The notes below the pieces were generated by a model. That model searched no databases. It had not been told where the DNA came from and worked only from the letters and a program-made list of their open reading frames with translations. DNA of 64,000 nt from Balneolaceae bacterium (GTDB taxonomy: Bacteria; Bacteroidota; Rhodothermia; Balneolales; Balneolaceae): positions 1-64,000 of the forward strand of contig VEMX01000007.1 of the NCBI GenBank assembly GCA_009711805.1, in the 5' to 3' direction. The position numbers and the translations under genes were made by a program. Every line of letters starts with the position of its first letter. Within the stretch, counting starts at the first letter, position 1. Below, piece after piece: positions 1,097 through 60,664 of this stretch.

Positions 1097-1993
1097 ATGG
1101 AGTTCATAAACCTTATAACTAACCAAATCATCGTTCCCTTTCTTTTTGTCTTTTGGCTGTGGAATAGTTCACATAAAAGTCGCATTAACTGGCTTATACA
1201 ACTTCTGTCTGCGGGTGCTTTAGTTGCTTCTGCACTTATTATTGGTGCTCAATCCTGGACTAGTATTTATACCGGAGGATTTTTACTGGTGTTTTTCATG
1301 GTAGCCACAATTAAGTCTTTCCGATTTCTTCCCAAAAACTGGATTCCTTTCTATTTTGGGGAAAACTGGAGTAAAAAAATACTTACCGGCACACAAATGT
1401 TTATTGGGTTGATCTTCCTGCCACTAAGTATCTATGGCCTTACCGGTTATTCTTTTTCAGGAGATTCGGTTTCTCTTCGTTTTCCAATGCAGGATGGCGT
1501 CTATTATGTAGCACATGGAGGCAGTAACCCACTGATCAACTACCATAATGTTCATCACGAACAAACCTATGCGATGGATATATCGGAGCTAAATGTATTT
1601 GGTGTCAGAGCTGCCGGACTCTACCCGAACCAGCTTGACCGTTATAAAATATTTGGAGAGAAAGTATACAGTCCTTGCACGGGTACGATACAAAAAGCTG
1701 TATCTCACCTTCCGGATAACCCTCCCCCAGAACGGGATTCCGGGAATCCGAAAGGCAATCATGTTCAAATTAAATGTAAAGGAGTTCAACTGTACCTGGC
1801 CCATTTAAAAAAAGGCAGTGTTTCCGCAGACAGCGGAAATGTTGTTCACAAGGGAGCTCTCCTGGGAGAGATTGGAAATTCGGGCAATACCTCGGAACCA
1901 CATCTTCATATACATGCCGTCCGGGATGGAAAAGGTATTCCTATAACTTTTAATGGGCGCTTCCTTGCCCGAAACAGTTTAGTGTGGAGATAG
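1097..1993 (+). CDS. membrane-anchored M23 family metallopeptidase
   Basis: Probable peptidoglycan or peptide endopeptidase of the LytM/M23 type. The first ~120 of 298 residues form about four membrane helices (roughly 8-22, 32-52, 56-73 and 93-113). They are followed by an extracytoplasmic domain in which HHEQTYAMDI supplies the first zinc His/Asp pair and EPHLHIHAV supplies the H-x-H ligand, with the usual G-rich beta strands (HKGALLGEIGNSGNTSEPH) before it. The spacing of first motif, beta barrel and HxH matches M23 enzymes. Having several N-terminal helices instead of a single signal peptide is less common. The gene is monocistronic and flanked on both sides by copies of a short repeat. 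Substrate is unknown; it could act in cell-wall remodelling or on a secreted peptide. Confidence 0.85.
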   Translation: MEFINLITNQIIVPFLFVFWLWNSSHKSRINWLIQLLSAGALVASALIIGAQSWTSIYTGGFLLVFFMVATIKSFRFLPKNWIPFYFGENWSKKILTGTQMFIGLIFLPLSIYGLTGYSFSGDSVSLRFPMQDGVYYVAHGGSNPLINYHNVHHEQTYAMDISELNVFGVRAAGLYPNQLDRYKIFGEKVYSPCTGTIQKAVSHLPDNPPPERDSGNPKGNHVQIKCKGVQLYLAHLKKGSVSADSGNVVHKGALLGEIGNSGNTSEPHLHIHAVRDGKGIPITFNGRFLARNSLVWR

Positions 1994-49306: not shown

Positions 49307-49954
49307 ATGAACACTTTTAAATCGTATCTAAAAAAACGTCTGCAACAATCACTTCCCGGTCGGCCTGCTCAACGAAGAATGGCACCGAATCCCAAAAACA
49401 GAAAAAACGCGCCCAGAAACTACGAACCCCAACATGATGACTTCAGAAACAGCAGCGTTTTGGTTCCCCTGAGAGACTGGAATGGCGAGTTGGAAATAGT
49501 TCTCACCTTACGCACTGCTTCTATTAATCACGGAGGACAAATCAGTTTTCCCGGAGGGGGTAGAGAAGGAGATGAAACAATTGAAGAAACGGCTCTGCGT
49601 GAAGCTCAGGAAGAAATTGGATTATATCCGGAGTCGGTTGAGGTTGCCGGAACACTGACGTCTCTTTATGTAGGACATTCAGATAATATGGTGACACCGG
49701 TAGTAGGTTTTTTGAATAAACCCCAGAAATTTACTCCGAATCCCAATGAGGTTGACGAAGTTTTTTCTGTATCACTTTTGGAGCTTGCGGGTGATAATAA
49801 CCGGAATCTTGAAGAATGGGATCTCAGGGGAGTGCCCTATAACGTACCCTACTGGAGTATTCACCGGGTTCCTCTGTGGGGAGCTACGGCAATGATCTTA
49901 AATGAACTAATTGAGCTGTACAGGGAGTTTATAGCCGCCAGAGAAAAATCATAA
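49307..49954 (+). CDS. Nudix hydrolase, CoA pyrophosphatase-like
   Basis: 215-residue Nudix protein. The Nudix box reads GGGREGDETIEETALREAQEEIGLYPE, which fits GX5EX7REUXEEXGU. The upstream strand HGGQISFPGG and the N-terminal extension are typical of the CoA/dNTP-type hydrolases (YeaB/NudL). It hydrolyses pyrophosphate bonds of CoA or nucleotide derivatives in the cytoplasm. Its last codons overlap the 3' end of the oxidoreductase gene on the other strand by 6 nt, a convergent overlap. Confidence 0.88.
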   Translation: MNTFKSYLKKRLQQSLPGRPAQRRMAPNPKNRKNAPRNYEPQHDDFRNSSVLVPLRDWNGELEIVLTLRTASINHGGQISFPGGGREGDETIEETALREAQEEIGLYPESVEVAGTLTSLYVGHSDNMVTPVVGFLNKPQKFTPNPNEVDEVFSVSLLELAGDNNRNLEEWDLRGVPYNVPYWSIHRVPLWGATAMILNELIELYREFIAAREKS

Positions 49955-51064
49955 CCAGTTGCTAATTATCCCAGCCCCTTCTTTACCCAATTGCATTCCC
50001 AGGGCTACTCCCATACCGCTCAGTCCGGCTACAATCAGACTCGAAGAACCTATTTTTTTTAATACCGGGCTTTTCGTTTCAGTGAACCCCATAATACCTG
50101 ACCACTCCTGTTCAATCTCCCAACTTTCAGGCAAACTCAGGATATCATTAGCAAACTCCATTAAATGTTCTTTGACCTTTTGGTTCACTCCAAAGTCACG
50201 GGTAGTCTCTTTTTCTATATCAATACTTCGGGCACCTCCAAGTAAAAGGCGGTCTTCGCCAATATTCCGGAAGTAGTAATACCCTCTGTCGTAGTGAAAA
50301 GTCCCCTTCCACCTAAGGTTGGTAACAGGCTTGGTCACAAATACATATCCACGGCCGGCTTCAATATTCACATCTTGCATCAGTTCTGGAGTAAATGAAT
50401 TTGTAGCAACTGCTATATGTTTTGATTCCAGCGTTATTCCTCCCTCTAACCGAACAATAGCTTCTTCGGTATCAATACTTTTTACTTTATTTTGCCAACG
50501 GAATTTTACTCCTTCTTTTAAATTTTTGATATACAAGGTATTCACCATTTTTCCAGGATGAAGAGCCCCTTCCATTTCAATTTTTATAGCCGGATAACCC
50601 TCATATTTCGTTGCATGATATACATTCCTGACTCCAGTAGCTTTTTCCAGCCAGCTATTGCACAAATCTATATTAGCCACTGCCTGTTGATATGATGCTT
50701 CATCCGTAAAAATCTCATACCCGCCCGGCTCCTCATATTGTATATTGGCATCTCCAAGGGTTTCACGCAACAGGTTCAATCCTTCATGCCTGCGGCGTAT
50801 TCGATCGATGATCTTTGCTTCATCCTCAATCTGCATATCTGAAACATGCTCCGTAACAGACCCAAAGCAGGCAAAACCAGCATTACGTGTGCTTGCCCCA
50901 AGTGGATAAAATCCACGATCAACAACCAATACATTCGCCTCAGGATGTTTCCTTTTGAAAAATAACGCCAATGACTGCCCGGTAAGTCCGGCACCTACCA
51001 CTACCAAATCATAGACCTGGTTATATAACTCCCTTTCCCAATATGATCTTCCGGGCTTTTTCAT
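49949..51064 (-). CDS. FAD-dependent oxidoreductase (DAO family)
   Basis: 371-residue flavoprotein. The N-terminal Rossmann site is DLVVVGAGLTGQSLALFFKRKHPEANVLVVDRG (GxGxxG and the acidic residue binding ribose), followed by STRNAGFACFGS, a long substrate cap and the C-terminal SLIVAGLSGMGVALGMQLGKEGA, which closes the FAD site. It resembles glycine or sarcosine oxidases and D-amino-acid dehydrogenases. The substrate is unknown. Its start overlaps the M20 peptidase stop by 4 nt (ATGA), so the two form a coupled pair that might process amino-acid derivatives. Confidence 0.85.
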   Translation of the reverse strand: MKKPGRSYWERELYNQVYDLVVVGAGLTGQSLALFFKRKHPEANVLVVDRGFYPLGASTRNAGFACFGSVTEHVSDMQIEDEAKIIDRIRRRHEGLNLLRETLGDANIQYEEPGGYEIFTDEASYQQAVANIDLCNSWLEKATGVRNVYHATKYEGYPAIKIEMEGALHPGKMVNTLYIKNLKEGVKFRWQNKVKSIDTEEAIVRLEGGITLESKHIAVATNSFTPELMQDVNIEAGRGYVFVTKPVTNLRWKGTFHYDRGYYYFRNIGEDRLLLGGARSIDIEKETTRDFGVNQKVKEHLMEFANDILSLPESWEIEQEWSGIMGFTETKSPVLKKIGSSSLIVAGLSGMGVALGMQLGKEGAGIISNWL

Positions 51065-52245
51065 TTGTGATCGAAGGCTAAGGCTGCCAAAAGAGGAGTA
51101 GCCACTTTAAAAAAGCCGTCATCCACATTGTAGCGAGGGTGGTGCCATGGATACTGAGAATCAGAATCAGGGCTTCCGCTTCCTACAAAAAAGAATGCTC
51201 CGGGAAAATGCTGTTGGTAGAATGCAAAATCTTCACCCGCCATAACCGGCCGTTTGCGCTTCACGGCTTTGTCTTCCCCAAACAAACGGCTCATACTAGC
51301 TAAAACAGTTTGCGCTTCTTTTTCAGTGTTTATAACGGGAGGGTAACCTTTGTTAAACTTCAGTGTATAGCCTCCACCGGCCGATTCCGTAATTCCTTTA
51401 GCTATCGCATTCAACCTATCTTTAACCAGTTCCGCTGTTTCCTCCGAAAGGGTTCGTACGGTTCCCAGCAAATTTACTTTTTCGGGGATAACGTTATAGG
51501 TCGTACCCCCTTCGATTTTACCCACCGTTACAACCACGGGTTCGGTTGGGTCTACACTTCGGCTGGCAATGGTTTGTATAGCATTAATAAATCTTGCTGC
51601 GAGTACAATCGGATCTACGGCTTTGTGCGCGCTGGCTGCATGTCCGCCCACTCCCTTAATCTCAACTTCAAATTCATCGGGAGCTGCCATTAATGCCCCC
51701 TTACGCGTGGCCATGACTCCTGGCTTGTACGAAGGCGATGTATGCAGACCATAGATGGCTTCGACACCCTGATCTTCCAGGAAACCAGTTTCACTCAACA
51801 GTCGCCCGCCTCCCGGTAATTTTTCTTCTCCGGGCTGAAACACAAGCAGCACTTTCCCTTCAATTTCGGCTTGCAGTTCTTTTAAAATATGAGCTACGCC
51901 CAACAGGTTAGCCGTGTGAGCATCATGCCCACAGCAGTGCGCAACCCCCGTATTCTGTGATAAAAACGCCTTTTTGGCTTCACCTTCTTCTTGTATGGGG
52001 AGGGCATCAATATCAGCCCGCAAGGCAATTACCCGTTTAGATTTTTTACCTCCTTCAATAATTCCAACGCATCCTGTCTCAAGGGGGCTTTTGTGAGGTA
52101 TACCAAGTTTATCAAGCTCAGATTTTATAAAATTTGTGGTCTCAAATTCTTTGTAGCTGATTTCGGGATGCCGGTGCAGATGTCTTCGAAGTTCAACGAC
52201 TTCAGTAAAATGAGCTTCTGCAAGCTCTTTTATTTTAGAATGCAT
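51061..52245 (-). CDS. M20-family amidohydrolase/peptidase
   Basis: 394 residues, M20D-type amidohydrolase (IAA-amino-acid/hippurate hydrolase group). The first metal site is TGVAHCCGHDAHTANLL; the HPEISYKEFETT start and the FQPGEEKLPGGGRLLSETG segment (acidic base residue and next ligand) are typical. GLHTSPSYKPGVMATRKGALMAAPDEFEVEIKGVGGHAASAHKAVDPIVLA is the dimerisation-domain start. The last ligand region is VMAGEDFAFYQQHFPGAFFFVG. It cleaves an N-acyl or amide bond in the cytoplasm. It is translationally coupled to an FAD oxidoreductase. Confidence 0.92.
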   Translation of the reverse strand: MHSKIKELAEAHFTEVVELRRHLHRHPEISYKEFETTNFIKSELDKLGIPHKSPLETGCVGIIEGGKKSKRVIALRADIDALPIQEEGEAKKAFLSQNTGVAHCCGHDAHTANLLGVAHILKELQAEIEGKVLLVFQPGEEKLPGGGRLLSETGFLEDQGVEAIYGLHTSPSYKPGVMATRKGALMAAPDEFEVEIKGVGGHAASAHKAVDPIVLAARFINAIQTIASRSVDPTEPVVVTVGKIEGGTTYNVIPEKVNLLGTVRTLSEETAELVKDRLNAIAKGITESAGGGYTLKFNKGYPPVINTEKEAQTVLASMSRLFGEDKAVKRKRPVMAGEDFAFYQQHFPGAFFFVGSGSPDSDSQYPWHHPRYNVDDGFFKVATPLLAALAFDHK

Positions 52246-52362
52246 TTATTGATTATCTTAGTTCGAGTGCTTTAGTCGAAAATAAGGATAATATTTCCTT
52301 TCCGTAACAATTAAGAAAAGTGTGCGTACGGAAATCCGTTAGCAAAAACACACCTTAATATT

Positions 52363-53625
52363 ATGAAAAAGACATCCTGGGAAATTGTATTGGCAGGCTT
52401 ATTCTGTTTGGTCATTGCAATTGCTGTTGTATCCAATGATTCAGATCAAGAACCAGAAACAGCCTATCGTGTATCTGTAATACCCGAGCATGAAATAGAA
52501 GAAGGAGAGACAAAAGCAGAAGAGCTGAAATCAAAACTTGAAACTTTAAAAGGACTGGAACAGCTTAAACAGCTCGAAAAACTGGACAAACTTGAAAACC
52601 TGGAGAGCCTCAAAAGTGTGGCAAATTTCTTACCTAAAGAGTTTAAAGAAGATTTTGTTAAAGAAATCGAAGCCGAGATCAAAAGAAGAGAATCAACAAA
52701 CGACAATGCGGAAACAAATACTAAAGAAGGAGCTATTTCCAGTAGTTACGCAACATCCTCATCCTCCGACAATATATGGAATGCCGTTTCTCCCGGCATT
52801 TTTGCCTATACAAAAGAGTTTAATGTGTCTAATCTTGAAGAAGCTACTATTAACCTGCCCAGCGGTTCCATTACGGTAATGGGGAATAATACATCAAGAG
52901 GCAAGATATACTTAGAAGCTTCAGGACAGATCTCAACGCGAAATGATCTGCTTTCTGATTTAGATATTAAAAGTGACATTCAAGATGATGAAGTTGTATT
53001 TCAGGTTACAGAATCATCGGGCCGCAATACGAATATCAACCTACAGGCAACGCTCTATATTCCTGTAAACACAGCCATCGAGCTTAGCACTAAAGAAGGC
53101 CATATTACTGCAAAAAATTTCACCGGAGAGCAAGATTATAATACCGGAGGCGGGCATATCAATTTACGTAATACATCCGGCGATATTTATGCCTTTACAT
53201 CAGGTGGTCACATTGAGGTAAAAGAAGCCTCAGGAAGCCTGGATTTGGAATCAAAAGGCGGACATGTTCATCTCGTTAATTCCTCAGGGGAAATAACAAT
53301 GACCTCTTCGGGGGGTAATTTATCCGGAGATAACATATCAGGTAATATTGTAGCCAACACCCATCAGGGTAATATTGAATTTCGTTTATCTCAGCTTACC
53401 GATGACCTGGATGCCTCTACAGGTGCTGGATCTGTGATTATAACGCTTCCTGCAAATTCTAATGCTGATATTGAATTTGCAGGAACCTCTTTAGATATTG
53501 ACTCAGCTTTCAACTTTACCGGCAAACGCACCACCAAAACTGCAAGCGGAGAAATTGGGAAAGGCGGAGCTTCGATCAAAGCAAATACAAAGTATGGCAA
53601 AGTGTTTTTGAAAAAAGATGGCTGA
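52363..53625 (+). CDS. membrane-anchored DUF4097-like beta-repeat protein
   Basis: 420 residues. An N-terminal hydrophobic segment (about 6-24) is followed by a short E/K-rich stretch with a striking leucine heptad pattern (about 60-105: SKLETLKGLEQLKQLEKLDK and on), then a spacer of S/N/T and the DUF4097-type domain (from about 165). This is built of short beta turns such as NLPSGSITVMGNNTS, GHITAKNFTG, GGHINLRNTSGDIYAFTSGGHIEV and GGHVHLVNSSGEITMTSSGGNLSG. A right-handed beta-helix-like fold is likely. The role is unknown; some proteins of this type bind the envelope. It overlaps mnmD by 8 nt, which suggests coupled translation without implying related function. Confidence 0.75.
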   Translation: MKKTSWEIVLAGLFCLVIAIAVVSNDSDQEPETAYRVSVIPEHEIEEGETKAEELKSKLETLKGLEQLKQLEKLDKLENLESLKSVANFLPKEFKEDFVKEIEAEIKRRESTNDNAETNTKEGAISSSYATSSSSDNIWNAVSPGIFAYTKEFNVSNLEEATINLPSGSITVMGNNTSRGKIYLEASGQISTRNDLLSDLDIKSDIQDDEVVFQVTESSGRNTNINLQATLYIPVNTAIELSTKEGHITAKNFTGEQDYNTGGGHINLRNTSGDIYAFTSGGHIEVKEASGSLDLESKGGHVHLVNSSGEITMTSSGGNLSGDNISGNIVANTHQGNIEFRLSQLTDDLDASTGAGSVIITLPANSNADIEFAGTSLDIDSAFNFTGKRTTKTASGEIGKGGASIKANTKYGKVFLKKDG

Positions 53626-54400
53626 AACCCCTGATATTCATCAAAGCAAAGACGGTTCTTCTACTCTATATTCTAATCAATTCAATCAATTTTATCATAA
53701 TCCCAACGGAGCAGTATCGGAAAGCCTGCATGTGTTTTTCGAAACTTCCGGGCTTAACCGGGCTTTAACAACAACTGAATCAATTACCATAGTTGAAGTA
53801 GGCTTTGGCACCGGACTTAACCTTCTCCTGCTGATGGATGCATATAAAACAGCTGCCTGTACAATCCCTGTACAGTACTATTCCATCGAAGCCTTTCCAA
53901 TTGACAGTACCCAGGCCCGCCGACTTCAGTTTAGCGACCATTTGAACCATCCGAGCCTCAGTTCTGCTCTGCCCCCTATATTTGAGCAATTATCTCCGGG
54001 ACTCAATTCAATAAAAGCCGTTGAGGATTTGAATATAGATCTACACCTGTTCTATGGTGCCTTAAAGGACTTTGATGAAGAATCCCTTAACGCCGACTTT
54101 ATTTTCCAAGATGCCTTTTCACCTGATGTAAATGCTGAACTGTGGACAGTAGAAACTTTTGAAAAGCTTTTTAGATTAGCCAAACCATCCGCCATCCTAA
54201 CAACTTATTGTGCTGCCTCGGGGGCAAGAGCAGCTATGGCTACGGCCGGATGGCACGTTGCGAGAGCTCCGGGTGCTTTAGGAAAAAGAGAAATGAGTAT
54301 TGCCTCTCCTCTGCCCGGCAAACTTTCCAATTATAAAAGAGTAAATGGGGAGCGGCTCATTCAACGCCTTAAAAACGGTGATTTTAATTCAGACACATGA
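53618..54400 (+). CDS. mnmD: tRNA 5-methylaminomethyl-2-thiouridine methyltransferase (MnmD-like)
   Basis: 260-residue SAM-dependent methyltransferase, stand-alone MnmD domain. It carries the SAM motif VEVGFGTGLNLLLLMD, then YSIEAFPIDSTQARRL and the acidic FIFQDAFSPDVNAELWTVETFEKLFRLAKPSAILTTYCAASGARAAMATAGW, a typical MnmC N-terminal (DUF752) sequence. In E. coli this activity is fused with an FAD oxidoreductase (MnmC). Here it is single, as in many other bacteria. It converts the final precursor in mnm5s2U34 formation in tRNA. The FAD oxidoreductase 2.5 kb away is on the other strand and is not the fused partner. Confidence 0.9.
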   Translation: MAETPDIHQSKDGSSTLYSNQFNQFYHNPNGAVSESLHVFFETSGLNRALTTTESITIVEVGFGTGLNLLLLMDAYKTAACTIPVQYYSIEAFPIDSTQARRLQFSDHLNHPSLSSALPPIFEQLSPGLNSIKAVEDLNIDLHLFYGALKDFDEESLNADFIFQDAFSPDVNAELWTVETFEKLFRLAKPSAILTTYCAASGARAAMATAGWHVARAPGALGKREMSIASPLPGKLSNYKRVNGERLIQRLKNGDFNSDT

Positions 54401-54526
54401 GCTTCAATTATCTTGCCGTCTTTTTCAGGTATTGTCCAGGAATGTTACTTCAGATCAGATAAAAGCACTACTTAACACATCCCCAAGGGACTGTAAATGT
54501 CACGCACTCCGATGACAACATTAGAG

Positions 54527-54645
54527 CCAAAACCATCTGCGCAACTCAGCGGTTCATCAGCGAGCCTCTGCGAGAAAAAAAGAGATTAAGAAAAGGCTCG
54601 GGAGGTTGGTTTGGATAGTGTGGTTTCACGCGGAGTTGCACGGAG
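54527..54645. repeat. direct repeat, copy A
   Basis: This 119-bp block (from CCAAAACCATCTGCGCAACT to CACGGAG) recurs at 54748-54876, mostly matching, with an extra CGGTTCATCAG in copy B. It contains the CGCGGAGTTG and CTCAGCGGTTC words also seen in intergenic repeats of many unrelated bacteria. The ORFs that run across it are composed of repeat-derived words and are not called as genes. Confidence 0.65.
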
Positions 54646-54747
54646 TTAGACGCAGAGTAGCGCGGAGGGAGCCGGGATCACTTGCAGGCCTGATGATAAA
54701 TATTGAAGTCCCTAAGTTTATATCGCTCATCCACAGAATCCGTTGTT

Positions 54748-54876
54748 CCAAAACCATCTGCGCAACTCAGCGGTTCATCAGCGGTTCATCAGCGGGTCTC
54801 TGCGAGAGAAAAGAGATTGAAAAAAAGCTGGGGAGGTTGCTTTGGATAGGGCAGTTTCACGCGGAGTTGCGTGGAG
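54748..54876. repeat. direct repeat, copy B
   Basis: Second copy of the 54527-54645 block, 221 nt further on, with an 11-bp internal duplication of CGGTTCATCAG. It runs straight into the tandem tRNA-derived repeats. Confidence 0.65.
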
Positions 54877-55082
54877 GGATTCTCCTATTGGAATGCCTTC
54901 GGCAGAACCCTCGGTATCGAGGGGAGGCGTATGGAAATAAGATAAAGTGCCAGCTGTTAGGTAAAGAAATGCGGAGAGGGAGGGATTCTCCCATTGGGAT
55001 GCCTTCGGCAGAACCCTCGGTATCGAGGGGGCGTATGGAAATAAGATAAAGTGCCAGCTGTTAGGTAAAGAAATGCGGAGAG
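54873..55082. repeat. two tandem units derived from the tRNA-Ser 3' end
   Basis: Units 54873-54978 (106 bp) and 54979-55082 (104 bp) are nearly identical (2-nt indel and few changes). Each begins with GGAGGGATTC, the same sequence as the tRNA T-arm/acceptor (55083-55092), carries a 22-nt insert before GAACCCTCG, and ends with the flank and GCGGAGAGG that lead into the next copy. The third copy is the real tRNA. This is typical of duplication by repeated integration or replication slippage at a tRNA 3' end. Confidence 0.7.
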
Positions 55083-55164
55083 GGAGGGATTCGAACCCTC
55101 GATACCGTGTTGACGGTATACTCCCTTAGCAGGGGAGCGCTTTAAGCCACTCAGCCACCTCTCC
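55076..55164 (-). tRNA. tRNA-Ser(GCU)
   Basis: Read on minus from 55164: GGAGAGGTGGCTGAGTGGCT begins the acceptor and D arm, the anticodon stem-loop is CTCCC-CTGCTAA-GGGAG with anticodon GCT (reads AGC/AGU), a long class II variable arm (TATACCGTCAACACGGTAT) follows, then the T arm GAGGG-TTCGAAT-CCCTC and the acceptor CCTCTCC with G as discriminator. The CCA is not encoded. The gene lies at the end of the tandem repeats that duplicate its 3' part. Confidence 0.93.
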
Positions 55165-55253
55165 TTTTTCAAGAGCCACAAATATATGGAGCTTTTACGC
55201 CTAATAGCAACCCCAACTCCCGATTCTTTTATTTTCTTGTCAACCAGAACCAA

Positions 55254-58200
55254 TCAACAAACACTATCGGCTAATTCTACTATAAATACCGTTCCTTTCC
55301 CCTCTTCCGATTCTACATGAATCCAACCTTCATGCATGTGTACCATATCTTTGCAAAGCATAAGCCCCAGGCCACTCCCTTTCTCATCTGCGGTTCCTGT
55401 CCGGGAGGTATCTGCCCCCACTTTCATCAATTTATTGCGAATCTCCTCCGGCATCCCAATTCCGGTATCTGACACCTGCAGATAACATGTATTGCCCCGC
55501 GCATATATCTCTACCTCAACCTTATCTCCTTTATTGGTAAACTTGAGTGCATTTGACAGCAAATTACGCATGACCGTATCTATCATATCCTTGTCAGCTT
55601 CAATAGTTATTTCTTCTTCCGAAGTAATCGACAAGGTAACATTCTTATGCTGCGCAATAGGACTTACGAGCTTTACATTTTTGTTTATCAATTTATTGAG
55701 CTGAAATTGTTGAAGATTCAGTTTAAGATTTCCTGTTTGAAGAGAAGCCCACTGCAACAGGTTCTCTACCAACTGATGAAGCCTATTTGACGAATCGTTA
55801 ATCTCTTTAAGGCTTTCTCTGAGTTCCTGCCGATCTATTTCATCAAAATCTTCGATCAACATCTCTGAATAAGCCATCATAGCTTGAAAAGGGTTTCGAA
55901 GGTCATGAGCAATAATGGAGAAAAACTGATCTTTTGCGTCATTGATTTCTTTGAGGCTTTTAGCCTGTTTTTCGATAATCTGGTTTTGGCTTTCTATTTC
56001 GCTTTTTTCTTTTCGGATTTGATGGGTTTGTTCCCTGATTACACTTTTCAGTTTCTTCTGCTTTCGCATCAAATACTGATATCTTACTTTAGAAAAGCCG
56101 ATAGTGGTAATCCCCACCACAGTAATTATCAAAAAATAGAACCAGGTTTGTTCGTAAAAAATTGAACGAACCTCTATACTTGCCGTGGTTACTTGCCTGC
56201 CCCAAACTCCATCATTACTGGCTGCCAAAACTTTAAATGTATATGTCCCTGCCGGAACGTCGGTGTATGTGGCCCAATACTCATTGCTTACCTCTTTCCA
56301 TCCTTTATCATAGCCTTCCAGCATATATCTGAACCTGACTTTTTCGGGAGCTGAATAGGATAATCCATGAAAATTAATTCTGAAATTTTTCACTCCAGAT
56401 TCCAGTGTAATTTCTTTTCCGTCGTACATATTTTCTTCCGCAAAAACATTCCGTATAACAGCTATTGGAGGTACTGCATTATCTGTATTGGGTTCTATTT
56501 CTATAATTGCAATTCCATTTTGGGTAGCAAACCAATAGTCATTACCCGATGTTTTTAATCCGCCTTGCTGAAAACCTCCATTGCACTCGGGATTTCTCAT
56601 TCCCTCTTCCCGGTCATACTGTATGATATTGTAAAAGGTATTATTTCCCTCTATATACGCATTCAACTCAGACTTCTTTACTTTAAAAACGCCTTTATTG
56701 GAAGACATCCATAACCAACCATTCTCATCTTCAGATATATGATGTATAATATGATCGGGCAGGTCATCCTTTAAGCCTATATGATCTATGCGGCCTTCCT
56801 TTAACCTGTTTAATCCCCTGTTCTCTGTTCCAACCCAAATAATATCCGAATCATCTTTATCTACATATATAGAACGTATGTTATCCGATGCCAGGCCTTC
56901 CTCTTCATTTATGGTGTTAAATTCTCCATCGTAAAAATAGCTAAGCCCTCCATCTGCCGTTCCCAACCAAAGACCTCCTTTTGGATCTTCTTCTATATAG
57001 CGAACCAGGTTCCCAGCCAGCCCATCTTCTTTAGTATATTTAATATGTTCTTCGTTCTCCGGATCAAACTTAACCAGCCCTCCATGGGTTCCTATCCACA
57101 TGGTAGAATCGCTGGCAATAAAAATTGACCGTACATCATTTATGCCTTTTTCAAATCCCAGTTTATATTTTTTTACGCCTTCATCATTATATCTTTCTAT
57201 TCCATCTTCATAATATCCAACCCATATATTGCCTTCATGATCTTCATTAAAAGCATGAGCTATACCTCTGCTCATAATCCCCCCCTCGCGGTACCTGCTT
57301 ATAAAATGGCCTTCCAGTACATTAACTCCATGATCCCTCGTTCCAATCCAAAACCGCCCCTTACTGTCTTCAAAAATCCCTAAAATATTGTTTCCGGAAA
57401 GCCCTTCCTCTTTCCCTATAACATCTATCTTGGGGCTTTTCAATCGTATTATTCCATTTCGGGTTGTTGCCAACCAGATATTTCGCTCTCTATCTTCAAA
57501 AATATCTGAATAGTATAAGTCTGGAATCACTCCTTCCTTCGAGAGTTTTCTTAGCTTTCCCTCTGTAAATTGACTAATCTCCCCATACGTACCCAGTAAC
57601 CATCTTATTCCTTTAGAGTCTTTTAAAATTTGTTTATAATAAATGCTTTTTCCAGGCTGTTCTTCCAGAAGAGTTATTATGTTGTTTTCGTATTTGTATA
57701 ATCCCCTGCTTGTACTTACCAGGTTTACTTCATCATCAGTATATATGTACAAAACTTCTTCGCCTTTAAGCATCTCAAATTTAGCCGGCTCAAAGAGTTG
57801 TCCGTTTTTCATTACCCCCAATCCATTTGTAGATCCAACAACAAGCTCTCCATTGTTTAAGTAAAGAACATCATTAAACCGGTTTTCAGAAGCGGTATCT
57901 GAAATATTATATATATCTACTTGGTTGTCGTAAAGATGTAGGAGACCATCGTAGGTAGACATCCATATAGAGTGATCCGGAGCTTCATAGATATAGGAAA
58001 TGCGGTTTTGACTGGCCGTTTCTCTTGTAATTATTCTATTAAATGTGCCGTTTTCATACTTAAATAATCCATCATAAGTACCAAACCACATATGATTCAT
58101 TGAATCTTCCATCATATAGGTAACGGTGGTGCTGATAAAACCTTTTTTCTCATCAAAATGTTTAAACTTCCCCTCCGGAGTTATCAGCATAACTCCATCG

Positions 58201-58511
58201 TTCTCCAGTGTTACCCAAACCCCAACCCCTTCTTGCCTATATACTTTATCAGCCCTGTTTTGGGCCATTTCAGCAGTATTTGCATGATTATAGATTTCAA
58301 ACTCCAATCCATCAAAACGAGCCATTCCATCATAGGTAGCCACCCAGAGGTAACCTTGCTCATCTTGAAAAATAGAATTTACCGTATTGACCGGAAGTCC
58401 ATCTTCTACATTCCATGCCCTTGAGATATATGGATCTTTCTCATATACCAGCTGAGTCTCCTTGACGTACTGCTCCTGAAATGTTATTAAAAACAATAGT
58501 AGTGCAATCAT
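55254..58511 (-). CDS. propeller-domain sensor histidine kinase
   Basis: 1085-residue membrane kinase with a large periplasmic sensor. The first ~690 residues form two seven-bladed propellers of Reg_prop repeats, with repeated words such as GYLWVATYDGMARFDGLEFE and NIWVGYYEDGIERYNDEG. A Y_Y_Y domain (about 705-775, PEKVRFRYMLEGYDKGW), one membrane helix (about 789-806), a coiled linker, HisKA with His869 (FSIIAHDLRNPF) and HATPase (N box DTVMRNLLSNALKFTNKG, GIGMPEE, GSGLGLMLCKDMV) follow. It ends in the HATPase, unlike hybrid HTCS proteins with receiver and AraC domains. Such sensors usually detect polysaccharide fragments. No response regulator is next to it. Confidence 0.92.
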   Translation of the reverse strand: MIALLLFLITFQEQYVKETQLVYEKDPYISRAWNVEDGLPVNTVNSIFQDEQGYLWVATYDGMARFDGLEFEIYNHANTAEMAQNRADKVYRQEGVGVWVTLENDGVMLITPEGKFKHFDEKKGFISTTVTYMMEDSMNHMWFGTYDGLFKYENGTFNRIITRETASQNRISYIYEAPDHSIWMSTYDGLLHLYDNQVDIYNISDTASENRFNDVLYLNNGELVVGSTNGLGVMKNGQLFEPAKFEMLKGEEVLYIYTDDEVNLVSTSRGLYKYENNIITLLEEQPGKSIYYKQILKDSKGIRWLLGTYGEISQFTEGKLRKLSKEGVIPDLYYSDIFEDRERNIWLATTRNGIIRLKSPKIDVIGKEEGLSGNNILGIFEDSKGRFWIGTRDHGVNVLEGHFISRYREGGIMSRGIAHAFNEDHEGNIWVGYYEDGIERYNDEGVKKYKLGFEKGINDVRSIFIASDSTMWIGTHGGLVKFDPENEEHIKYTKEDGLAGNLVRYIEEDPKGGLWLGTADGGLSYFYDGEFNTINEEEGLASDNIRSIYVDKDDSDIIWVGTENRGLNRLKEGRIDHIGLKDDLPDHIIHHISEDENGWLWMSSNKGVFKVKKSELNAYIEGNNTFYNIIQYDREEGMRNPECNGGFQQGGLKTSGNDYWFATQNGIAIIEIEPNTDNAVPPIAVIRNVFAEENMYDGKEITLESGVKNFRINFHGLSYSAPEKVRFRYMLEGYDKGWKEVSNEYWATYTDVPAGTYTFKVLAASNDGVWGRQVTTASIEVRSIFYEQTWFYFLIITVVGITTIGFSKVRYQYLMRKQKKLKSVIREQTHQIRKEKSEIESQNQIIEKQAKSLKEINDAKDQFFSIIAHDLRNPFQAMMAYSEMLIEDFDEIDRQELRESLKEINDSSNRLHQLVENLLQWASLQTGNLKLNLQQFQLNKLINKNVKLVSPIAQHKNVTLSITSEEEITIEADKDMIDTVMRNLLSNALKFTNKGDKVEVEIYARGNTCYLQVSDTGIGMPEEIRNKLMKVGADTSRTGTADEKGSGLGLMLCKDMVHMHEGWIHVESEEGKGTVFIVELADSVC

Positions 58512-58756
58512 TGCCCACCGCGTAAAAATCTATAATACTGAAACCTAAAGTAAACTATATTTTATCTAAATAAGGAACCAAATCAAAACTTTTTATAAAA
58601 AAGCTACATATGATTTTTCCCATCAGTGCAAAAGCAATAAAAAAGGAGCCTTCTTAATTCATCCTCTTATTTCTGGCTTCTCCCAGAAAAACAGTTTATG
58701 CATTTCTCTCTTAACTTTATCTACCAGACCTGCCTTGGCCGCTTTAATTGCTCTTA
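58512..58756. other. intergenic region
   Basis: AT-rich region between the kinase and hpt genes, which lie on the same strand. I see no ORF or clear terminator. Confidence 0.35.
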
Positions 58757-59320
58757 CTATGCATCATCCAGCACATAGATTTGGGCAAGATTTCTTCCCT
58801 CCTGAGCGTAATCCAATCCATATCCCAAGACAAAAGCATCGGGTATTTCAAACCCTACATAATCAAGCTGCACATCATATTTAGTAGCTTCCTTTTTGTG
58901 GAGTAAGGTGAGTACGGATACCGATTCAGGATTATATTTCTTTACATTCTCAACCAGGTAATTCATAGAAAGCCCTGTGTCTACAATATCTTCGACCAGT
59001 ATAATATGTCTGCCTTCAATTTTGGCATCTATATGCTTCAGTTCCGTAACTTTACCAGACGACACTTTCTCATCTCCATAGCTACTTAGTTTCATAAAAT
59101 CTACTTCACAGGAAATAGATACATGTCGCATAATATCAGCCAAAAAAATGAAAGCCCCATTCAGCACACCAATAAAAATCGGTTTCTTGCCTTCAAACTC
59201 TTTATTCAACTGATTACCAAGTTGAGATAGGCGTTCTTCCAACTGTTCTTTGGTTATGAAAACTTTAAAACTCTCATCATTACATGTTACTTCTTCGGGC
59301 AAATAAAAAGATGAACTCAT
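58757..59320 (-). CDS. hpt: hypoxanthine phosphoribosyltransferase
   Basis: Purine salvage: hypoxanthine or guanine + PRPP to IMP/GMP. 187 residues. The PRPP motif is IILVEDIVDTGLSMNYLVENVKKY, preceded by FIGVLNGAFIFLADIMRHVSISCEVDFMKLSSYGD (flexible loop) and followed by LDYVGFEIPDAFVLGYGLDYAQEGRNLAQIYVL. It follows tilS without a gap: its ATG at 59320 directly follows the tilS stop (59321). hpt after tilS is the common arrangement in many bacteria. Confidence 0.96.
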   Translation of the reverse strand: MSSSFYLPEEVTCNDESFKVFITKEQLEERLSQLGNQLNKEFEGKKPIFIGVLNGAFIFLADIMRHVSISCEVDFMKLSSYGDEKVSSGKVTELKHIDAKIEGRHIILVEDIVDTGLSMNYLVENVKKYNPESVSVLTLLHKKEATKYDVQLDYVGFEIPDAFVLGYGLDYAQEGRNLAQIYVLDDA

Positions 59321-60664
59321 CTATTTAGTAGGTTTAATCGTCAAATATGTTGTTGTGTTTTCATCGCATTTTGCCAGTTCAGAAATTGCACCCTTTGCTG
59401 ATTCAGAAACTGGACCTGGATATATAATGGCGTAAATAGTACTATCTGATCCACACAAAACCAAAGTTTTTTCTTTTAAATTTGACGCTATTTTTCGATT
59501 TGTTAAATGATCTGAAATTTTCTGACTTCCCTTCATACCAAACGGAATAAACCGGTCGCCATGCTTCCAGTGCCTTATCTGCAATGGCCAATCTAAAGCT
59601 TCCGCATCAATATATAATCCCGTTCTGGATTTTATGCCTTTAGTAAGACGAATATTCACGCCCCCTACGGTATACTTATCCTCCAGGTGTTGCCTGGTAA
59701 TTGGCTGCTTCCACGCTTTGTCCTCTTTTTTTTTCTGAAGAATCACCCGGTCTCTGTCTCGAATAAACTCTGCATTTCCAACAACCAGTGACTTTCCCGT
59801 TTGTAGATCTTCAATCTTACTTAATTCCTGCAACTGAGCTTTAGAGCAAGAGGTATCTCCGTTGAAGTCATCCAGCAAATGCTTAAGTATGGCCGGCTTA
59901 AGTTGCTGCGGGAGCTCAGAGAATGCGTGCACATCAAGAACAAAATCTTCTGATATCTGTGCTGTAATCCACTCGATACTTTGCTGAAACCACCCTCCCT
60001 GTTGTTGTAGTTCCAATATATTCTGTTGCCAACCCGGGAAAAACCGATCCATTTGTTCAGAGAACTCTTTTCTCAAGAAATTGCGTGCAAAACTGGATTG
60101 CAGGTTACTCTCATCAATACGATAGGGAATAGCGTTTACCTCACAAAAGTGCAGGATTTCCTCTTTACTGAAATTAAGTAATGGGCGAAATATATTCCCA
60201 TCCCAACTGCTCATACCTTGCCATGCAGTGGGAGAACTTCCCCTTAACACTTTCTGAAGGATAGTCTCAATTTGATCATCCTGATGATGAGCTGTTACAA
60301 TAGCTGCGGCTTTGTGGGCATCCCTTAATCCTTTAAAAAAATGATACCGTTCTTCACGCGCCCAGTTTTGAAAGTTCCCAATGTCGGCTGTAGAAGAATC
60401 TAACTGTATAGAACAACACTCAAACCCCCACTGAAAGGCCATTTGCTCAACCAGGTCCTGGTCTTTATCTGATGCTTCTCCCCGCTTGTTATAATTTATA
60501 TGCACCACAAGTACATTCAAATCAAGTATATGAAACAGGTAAAGTAAAGCCATAGAATCGGGACCGCCACTCACCCCAAGTACAAAGAGAGCCTCTTCCT
60601 CAAAGTATGCACCCACACTTCGGCGAAAGGAGTCAATTATATCATCTACGGCCGTTTTTTCCAT
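59321..60664 (-). CDS. tilS: tRNA(Ile)-lysidine synthase
   Basis: ATP-pyrophosphatase that modifies C34 of tRNA-Ile(CAU) to lysidine, so that it reads AUA. The 447 residues carry the PP-loop SGGPDS (32-37) with VLVVHINYNKRGEASDKD next, a TilS second motif (TAHHQDDQIETILQKVLRGSS) and a C-terminal TilS domain (RHWKHGDRFIPFGMKGSQKISDHLTNRKI). It is upstream of hpt with no gap, so they form an operon. The length fits the family. Confidence 0.95.
   Translation of the reverse strand: MEKTAVDDIIDSFRRSVGAYFEEEALFVLGVSGGPDSMALLYLFHILDLNVLVVHINYNKRGEASDKDQDLVEQMAFQWGFECCSIQLDSSTADIGNFQNWAREERYHFFKGLRDAHKAAAIVTAHHQDDQIETILQKVLRGSSPTAWQGMSSWDGNIFRPLLNFSKEEILHFCEVNAIPYRIDESNLQSSFARNFLRKEFSEQMDRFFPGWQQNILELQQQGGWFQQSIEWITAQISEDFVLDVHAFSELPQQLKPAILKHLLDDFNGDTSCSKAQLQELSKIEDLQTGKSLVVGNAEFIRDRDRVILQKKKEDKAWKQPITRQHLEDKYTVGGVNIRLTKGIKSRTGLYIDAEALDWPLQIRHWKHGDRFIPFGMKGSQKISDHLTNRKIASNLKEKTLVLCGSDSTIYAIIYPGPVSESAKGAISELAKCDENTTTYLTIKPTK

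Follow-up and report, generated by a model that had tools for sequence, protein, structure and literature searches.

Attachment sites of integrases are typically located at the 3' ends of tRNA genes and retain a tRNA 3' half. Tandem repeats downstream of a tRNA gene are also known from the rtT repeats of Escherichia coli tyrT, which carry the 3' end of tRNA-Tyr; we know of no nuclease gene and no T-loop hairpin insert associated with them. Short inserts made of paired hairpins, the double-hairpin elements of fungal mitochondria, are regarded as mobile. Among the GIY-YIG nucleases, I-TevI and the Seg proteins possess a separate DNA-binding domain, Slx1 cuts branched DNA, and for the UPF0213/Slx1-like proteins no tRNA-anchored arrangement is known to us.

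SegB is a GIY-YIG homing endonuclease of phage T6 that cuts inside tRNA genes (PMC13096335). According to the accessible part of that report, the SegB motif RAWTSGAAC (23 of 83 sites) is helpful, and not strictly required, in vitro, and the nuclease activity of SegB is needed for tandem amplification of the segment containing the tRNA and segB by recombination (PMC13096335). Here we describe tRNA remnants in a 64,000-nt stretch of DNA from a Balneolaceae bacterium (the window, i.e., the whole stretch that was analysed), and compare the locus with its counterparts in other genomes of the family and the phylum.

Results

The tRNA-Ser(GCT) locus of the window

A preliminary description of the window had reported tandem remnants of the tRNA-Ser 3' end beside an intact tRNA gene, and this is borne out by direct sequence reading and by a repeat search. 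The intact tRNA is real; its placement had to be revised because it is encoded on the minus strand, so that the units are located downstream of its 3' end. From the tRNA outward, the features are as follows.

55075..55164, minus strand: intact tRNA-Ser(GCT), the anchor and presumed target gene (ARAGORN; single genome match at E ≤ 1e-15)
between 55092 and 55093, minus strand: T-loop site TTC^GAA of the intact tRNA-Ser(GCT)
55029..55074, minus strand: 3' flank of the tRNA, which recurs between the two units (direct repeat D1; 98% identity)
54970..55028, minus strand: tRNA-proximal split tRNA end (sequence reading, repeats; R1 match 54980-55018, 65.7 bits), consisting of the variable-arm/T-stem 5' side plus TTC (55011-55028), the insert (54989-55010), and the T-stem 3' side plus acceptor (54970-54988)
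54989..55010, minus strand: 22-nt double hairpin TGCC-GAA-GGCA / TCCC-AAT-GGGA inside the T-loop (covariation over 53 sequences)
54925..54969, minus strand: second copy of the tRNA 3' flank (direct repeat D1)
54873..54924, minus strand: distal split tRNA end, with its insert at 54883-54904 (R1 match 54874-54912, 59.1 bits)

Read on the minus strand, the proximal unit is CCTCGATACCGAGGGTTC [TGCCGAAGGCATCCCAATGGGA] GAATCCCTCCCTCTCCGCA, the middle part being the insert, and the insert of the distal unit is TGCCGAAGGCATTCCAATAGGA. Each unit measures about 104-106 bp and is composed of the variable-arm/T-stem side of tRNA-Ser(GCT), TTC, the 22-nt insert, and the T-stem side starting with GAATCCC. 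The insert can be folded as two 4-bp hairpins with 3-nt loops, with one mismatch in the second hairpin of the distal copy. Thus, the 22-nt insert of the preliminary description stands, with its position now assigned to the T-loop at TTC^GAA, whereas the distal unit retains of its 3' half no more than GAATCCCTCC, after which other sequence follows. The unit spacing is reflected in 66-nt copies that are 104 nt apart and 98% identical, and a second repeat pair consists of 52-nt copies that are 106 nt apart and 96% identical (repeat search). No nuclease remnant was seen in either of the two window units. The segment 54527-54876, which adjoins the distal unit where its acceptor end is gone, contains a repeat rich in CTCTGCG/CGCGGAG in two copies 221-232 bp apart (repeat search).

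Recurrence of the split copies

The covariance model of the split T-arm (R1) was built from 11 sequences, both window rows among them. It yielded 13 matches of at least 48.9 bits in the window genome, ten of which are model-building sequences or identical copies, the three independent ones (C21, C9:32449, C5) scoring 48.9-52.5 bits. Two matches are those of the window, five stand in tandem at tRNA-Pro(GGG), three are found in a tRNA cluster (Glu, Glu, Pro-TGG), and the rest are single copies at tRNA-Ser(TGA), at tRNA-Asn, and at one place without a tRNA. With the window genome included, R1 matches were detected in 31 of 92 genomes of the family (E ≤ 0.01) and in 48 of 392 genomes of the phylum (E ≤ 1e-5), weak matches often covering the two hairpins alone. 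Exact searches found the 22-nt insert pattern in one Ignavibacteriae MAG as well, and none in viral contigs. The insert, for which a search of genomic islands had been suggested in the preliminary description, is therefore not private to the window locus and recurs at many tRNA genes.

Genomic context was analysed for 62 R1 matches, with opposite-strand duplicates, overlapping loci, two identical tRNA-Pro copies, and weaker matches omitted. Among the 38 of these that score at least 40 bits, 28 have a same-strand tRNA upstream and two more stand behind a tmRNA gene; eight have neither tRNA nor tmRNA in reach. At L087, L088, L059, and L090, a split copy is located 60-63 bp behind a tmRNA gene; it includes the 3' end of the tmRNA, the T-loop of which is interrupted by the insert. 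The longest array comprises 11 copies, at a tRNA-Thr gene (L164). Double hairpins of a similar kind are also present away from tRNAs. For example, positions 2117-2144 of the window and locus L219 of the same genome (G000, contig C34) contain a double hairpin of like build, TGTCGAAGACA / CTCC..GGAG, at TTC^GAA; the sequence around it, common to both places, is not a tRNA, and the 22-nt type of insert may have other hosts besides tRNAs.

Using similarity to the 3' end of the neighbouring tRNA, we found 70 copies that show the T-stem plus TTC followed by an insert. The insert is 22 nt long in 55 of them, 23 nt in three, 18 nt in two, and of other lengths in ten, where the place L129 is counted at least twice and the longest and shortest inserts may be due to chance. 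Not counted in this set are 51 matches in which no 5' side could be recognised (chance matches, other tRNAs, or different split types) and a further 18 in which the T-loop is uninterrupted, either because they are other tRNA genes or because a different arm of the copy is broken. Because similarity to the own tRNA recovers insert-bearing copies, each copy matches its neighbour tRNA while the insert is common to them.

Across 53 distinct sequences, 94.3% of the cells are paired, and the covariation value is 0.411 versus a shuffled mean of 0.140, a level that none of 500 shuffles reached; each of the measures likewise exceeded all 500. Pairing in the two insert hairpins amounts to 95.3 and 98.1%, and their arms change in a compensatory manner; e.g., the pair 10-18 is GC in 26 sequences, CG in 15, and UA in 10. 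The covariation of the T-stem helix is inherited from tRNAs, that of the two insert hairpins is not. It should be noted that the loci of the insert count come largely from a model that rewards hairpins, so that the 410 of 424 paired cells are partly selected; the own-tRNA copies were recognised by tRNA similarity. A chance origin of the window structure is ruled out by the recurrence of R1 matches, the own-tRNA copies with inserts, and the covariation. An artefact of fragmented assemblies is unlikely, arrays being present also in one-contig genomes (G309, G359). Nor is a known RNA family involved as far as six loci scanned with Rfam are concerned: no family except tRNA reached its gathering score, no covariance match to rtT RNA was found up to E 1, and none of ten rows below the gathering score, several of them on the tRNA genes themselves, was taken up.

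Split types with hairpins in other arms

Not all copies are split at the T-loop. In units at tRNA-Gly, Met, Pro, and Leu, a hairpin takes the place of one T-arm side or of a portion of the anticodon arm; in these and in some tRNA-Ser units, hairpins are located in other arms, with the T-arm intact in some, and certain units bear just one hairpin, in a different arm. Units upstream of tRNA-Ser contain the 5' part, without a T-loop, and their double hairpin is in the D-loop or the anticodon loop. One 5' tRNA copy lies upstream of tRNA-Ser(TGA) in the window genome (L010, positions 1338-1359, minus strand; G000, contig C40), with a 22-nt insert in the D-loop at GGTC^GAATG; the downstream copy at the same tRNA has its insert in the T-loop instead. 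In L346 (G064, contig C14), a single hairpin TCCCGCCCGGCGGGA replaces the T-loop region in three tandem, near-complete tRNA-Pro copies, and the corresponding tRNA carries the 22-nt type in G010. Breakage of one arm of each copy by hairpins may be the general rule, and the choice of broken arm may indicate where each type of nuclease cuts, a pattern that a reason at the RNA level fits as well. Because not all copies are split at the T-loop, a single cut site cannot explain all of them.

A GIY-YIG gene adjoining tRNA genes

A short GIY-YIG open reading frame (ORF) is located between the intact tRNA and the split copy at tRNA-Ser(GCT) of G007 (L013) and at tRNA-Ser(TGA) of the window genome (L010), and the same order of tRNA, nuclease, and split copy was observed at tRNA-Ser(GGA), Asn, Met, and others. 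The nuclease fold is of the homing-endonuclease type: two proteins of 83 and 74 residues match PF01541 (Pfam; E 3.9e-13 and 3.1e-12) at residues 6-69 and 3-60, respectively, which is the sole Pfam match, i.e., no separate DNA-binding domain was detected. In 17 aligned rows nine columns are invariant, including Y, Y, G, R, H, and E, which we take to be the catalytic positions. As a profile, the proteins match UPF0213 (E 5.7e-17) and Slx1 (E 5.8e-08) far better than I-TevI (E 0.0071); the UPF0213/Slx1-like proteins are represented by PDB entries 1zg2, 1ywl, and 7cq2. A tblastn search with one GIY-YIG protein returned nine phage records, all unannotated and less than 60% identical, and lends no support to a phage origin.

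The nuclease profile matches in 170 of 392 phylum genomes (E ≤ 1e-16); seven GIY-YIG genes were matched in the window genome, one of them at tRNA-Ser(TGA). We took 104 nuclease loci, of which 17 repeat one already counted, leaving 87 distinct loci. A same-strand tRNA is present within 400 bp in 73 of the 87 (upstream in 56, downstream only in 17), and within 100 bp in 62. With an assumed number of about 45 tRNA genes per genome, such proximity is expected, by our estimate, for well under 2% of random genes. The loci were picked by score before their context was known, some of them for clustered matches, so that the figure of 25 arrays among 87 loci overstates the frequency of arrays. The other 14 loci, which have no same-strand tRNA within 400 bp, include one at a tmRNA gene (L258), one at an RNase P RNA gene, three at contig edges, and two with tRNA-Ser otherwise placed; the remaining seven (L079, L151, L153, L154, L261, L263, L275) contain no tRNA or tmRNA in the stretch examined, and an Rfam scan of four of these seven gave no match. 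The RNase P RNA gene was matched by Rfam at loci L156 and L157. In both (L156 in G040, L157 in G038; about 1475-1720, minus strand), the GIY-YIG ORF is apparently inside this gene, near its 5' end, and in the sequence of L156 it is flanked by the inverted repeat CCCCGCACATAACATTT / AAATGTTATGTGCGGGG; as read from the sequence, the RNase P RNA gene may contain the ORF in a stem-loop.

At L182, tRNA-Ser(TGA) is followed by three units with a spacing of 306 bp; in each of them an ATG lies a few bases past the tRNA end, and the split copy at the end of the unit contains an 18-nt double hairpin. At five loci (L073, L136, L230, L242, L276), the nuclease domain match starts 1-7 nt past the tRNA end; therefore, a transcript shared by the tRNA and the nuclease is likely. 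Neighbouring nuclease copies in arrays have pN of 0.0081 and pS of 0.0695 (pN/pS 0.12, pooled pairs more than 75% identical), which is indicative of purifying selection on the array copies.

In a nuclease tree of 71 sequences (the 73 tRNA-linked rows without L230 and L238, which are shorter than 55 residues), the amino acid of the adjacent tRNA requires 17 changes, compared to a shuffled mean of 46.2, and none of 200 shuffles was as low, a result to which near-copies contribute; support is weak, with six of 68 inner branches starred. The clades of the same tRNA identity mix host families. Host family requires 33 changes and upstream/downstream position ten; the host-family count uses other classes and has no shuffle control, so 33 and 17 are not strictly comparable.

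Presence and absence of units at homologous sites

All eight species of the genus that includes G041 show synteny at the tRNA-Ser(TGA) locus. A 300-bp unit is present at this tRNA in G041 and absent from the homologous site in the seven congeners, where the hairpin AATAGCCC...GGGCTATT is found within about 16 nt of the tRNA. In G041, the homologous flank lies 300 bp farther, past the nuclease gene and the split copy, with the 18-nt tRNA 3' half on both sides. Because the unit is found in one of eight species and is absent in seven, gain in G041 is favoured.

The preliminary description had also pointed to a comparison with relatives, in which the tandem structure proved not to be universal. 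Among 30 tRNA-Ser(GCT) loci, the nuclease gene is present at three (G007, G010, G048) and split copies were found at those of the window, G007, and G095, the last with a different hairpin; one locus is at a contig edge, and 24 have neither nuclease nor split copy, where an empty locus is one without a 15-nt tRNA-end repeat and without a GIY-YIG match within 1.4 kb, a definition that may miss other copy types. At L310, a short acceptor-end repeat is located behind the nuclease. The gene hpt is present upstream within 1.5 kb at 26 of the 30 loci; the hpt-linked locus of G007 bears the GIY-YIG unit, and in the window a sensor kinase gene lies between hpt and the tRNA.

G104 has an ORF-less unit at tRNA-Asn that is absent in G101, the tRNA region of which is 99% identical; the two genomes are not alike in their downstream flanks, and the listed contamination of G104 is 7%. 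Two congeners have different kinds of units at the same tRNA-Pro. In the tRNA-Pro array of the window genome, one and the same flank stands behind the tRNA and behind each of the first two units; the flanks of the following two units differ, and that of the last unit is unrelated and includes a hairpin and a T run of its own. Judged from these flanks, the polarity of the array fits growth at the tRNA end.

Discussion

In our view, the window probably contains two ORF-less units of tiny, site-specific, homing-type mobile elements that are anchored at tRNA genes, or in some cases at those for tmRNA or RNase P RNA, in the phylum of the window, probably Bacteroidota. A full unit would typically be about 300-450 bp long and would combine a single-domain GIY-YIG gene, which at some loci starts no more than a few bases past the 3' end of the tRNA, with a partial copy of the adjacent tRNA, one arm of which is broken by hairpins; in the type found in the window, the break is the 22-nt double hairpin in the T-loop. 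According to our comparison, RAWTSGAAC corresponds to the complement of GTTCGAATC in the T-loop; the TTCAAATC-type T-loops of Pro and Glu have one mismatch to the SegB motif. The 22-nt insert splits exactly this SegB-like motif, and for this reason we propose a cut at the T-loop and protection by the hairpin.

We infer the following steps: (i) the nuclease would cut the tRNA gene near the T-loop; (ii) repair from a unit-bearing copy would add one unit, with the tRNA half of the split copy serving as a homology arm, and the tRNA gene would stay intact; (iii) the hairpin would keep the split copy from being cut, i.e., the copy would no longer be a target; (iv) repeated rounds would produce tandem arrays with the newest units adjoining the tRNA; (v) the ORF-less units, those of the window included, would behave as satellites that depend in trans on a GIY-YIG gene of the same genome, e.g., the one at tRNA-Ser(TGA). 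The parallel with SegB likewise suggests how arrays may grow. Since the intact tRNA keeps the presumed cut site, self-cutting must be tolerated.

The linkage of a nuclease to a foldable insert can be read in other ways. An Slx1-like nuclease might instead cut a three-way junction extruded by the split T-arm, in which case the hairpins are the substrate and not a block. The UPF0213 and Slx1 profile matches, which outrank I-TevI, and the outer stem that together with the two hairpins makes a covarying branched fold are consistent with such structure-selective cutting, which we nevertheless regard as unlikely, because an intact tRNA gene adjoins every unit, split copies pile up in arrays and are not lost, and in some units there is just one hairpin, in a different arm. 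We consider still less probable a role at the RNA level, where the hairpin-broken tRNA part would be co-transcribed as a decoy, antidote, or regulator of the nuclease, which in that case would act on tRNA, or the hairpins would block stray tRNA processing or charging. The likely shared transcript at five loci, the placement of hairpins in whichever arm a copy keeps, even in copies without a T-loop, and the compensatory changes all fit a folded RNA; however, the hairpins might just as well function at the DNA level, no nuclease is present at the examined loci of ORF-less arrays, and the unit must be dispensable, since many orthologous tRNA loci of relatives are without it.

Two explanations dispense with the nuclease and are much weaker candidates than these. 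Passive tandem duplication by slippage or unequal exchange, possibly with copies kept for a function like that of rtT repeats, would account for tandem units with a copied 3' flank and for copy numbers that vary between loci, yet it cannot yield the same covarying 22-nt insert at different tRNAs in different families, nor the nuclease linkage and the tRNA-identity clades, and the G041 unit with its nuclease gene disfavours it further; we consider it very improbable. Least probable of all are scars of an integrase-type island, i.e., attachment-site copies left by repeated integration and excision at the tRNA 3' end, as proposed in the preliminary description. The location of the window units at the tRNA 3' end and the retained tRNA 3' half agree with that proposal, and repeated events of a site-specific element at this end survive in our interpretation; we see no indication of an integrase or of an excised island. 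The 22-nt insert interrupts the region in which identity is needed for strand exchange, so that the two ends lack an identical core; arrays consist of up to 11 similar short units; and the genes identified between copies are GIY-YIG nucleases, the elements at tRNA-Ser(GCT) of G007 and at many other tRNAs encoding this small protein. None of the seven proteins around the site (49952-60664) has an integrase or recombinase Pfam match.

Beyond the homing-type reading of the window, we lean slightly towards a more general one: a new class of minimal selfish elements on structured-RNA genes (tRNA, tmRNA, RNase P RNA), consisting of a tiny GIY-YIG nuclease and a hairpin-split copy of its target, with harmless insertion, self-protection by a split cut site, tandem growth, gene-less satellites served in trans, and phylum-wide distribution. 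If this is right, the tRNA gene ends of a large bacterial phylum bear overlooked mobile elements far smaller than islands or insertion sequences, and one mechanism would account for the tandem remnants of tRNAs, the many small GIY-YIG genes, and the conservation of a double hairpin. It would also offer a testable cut site, self-protection trick, and change in copy number, and would tie bacterial chromosomes to the recent finding of GIY-YIG amplification of tRNA loci in phage.

Comparison with known systems

In titles and abstract openings, with few subscription papers among them, we found no description of GIY-YIG genes with split tRNA copies in bacterial chromosomes, and the accessible part of a 2006 survey of GIY-YIG proteins describes no such chromosomal arrangement (PMC1564403). 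The tRNA-anchored GIY-YIG element family is apparently widespread and unreported. The rtT repeats resemble the present units in being tandem repeats behind a tRNA gene that bear the tRNA 3' end. Fungal double-hairpin elements are similar in build, being short inserts of two adjacent hairpins; the present insert differs from them in its placement within a copied part of the adjacent tRNA and in its association with a nuclease gene. The UPF0213 and Slx1-like GIY-YIG proteins are the top profile matches to the present nucleases. Free-standing homing endonuclease genes share with them the nuclease fold, the precise presence and absence seen in G041, and a nuclease lineage that tracks its tRNA target, whereas no separate DNA-binding domain was detected in the two present proteins compared with Pfam. 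SegB, free-standing in T-even phages, is alike in being a GIY-YIG nuclease adjoining tRNA genes (PMC13096335, PMC2988022). It differs in acting in a phage and not in a chromosome and in amplifying tRNA-Tyr; the accessible parts of these reports describe no split tRNA half or double hairpin, and the present proteins are short and closer to UPF0213/Slx1. Taken with these likenesses and differences, the elements are apparently kin to homing-type GIY-YIG elements, of which they represent a previously undescribed form.
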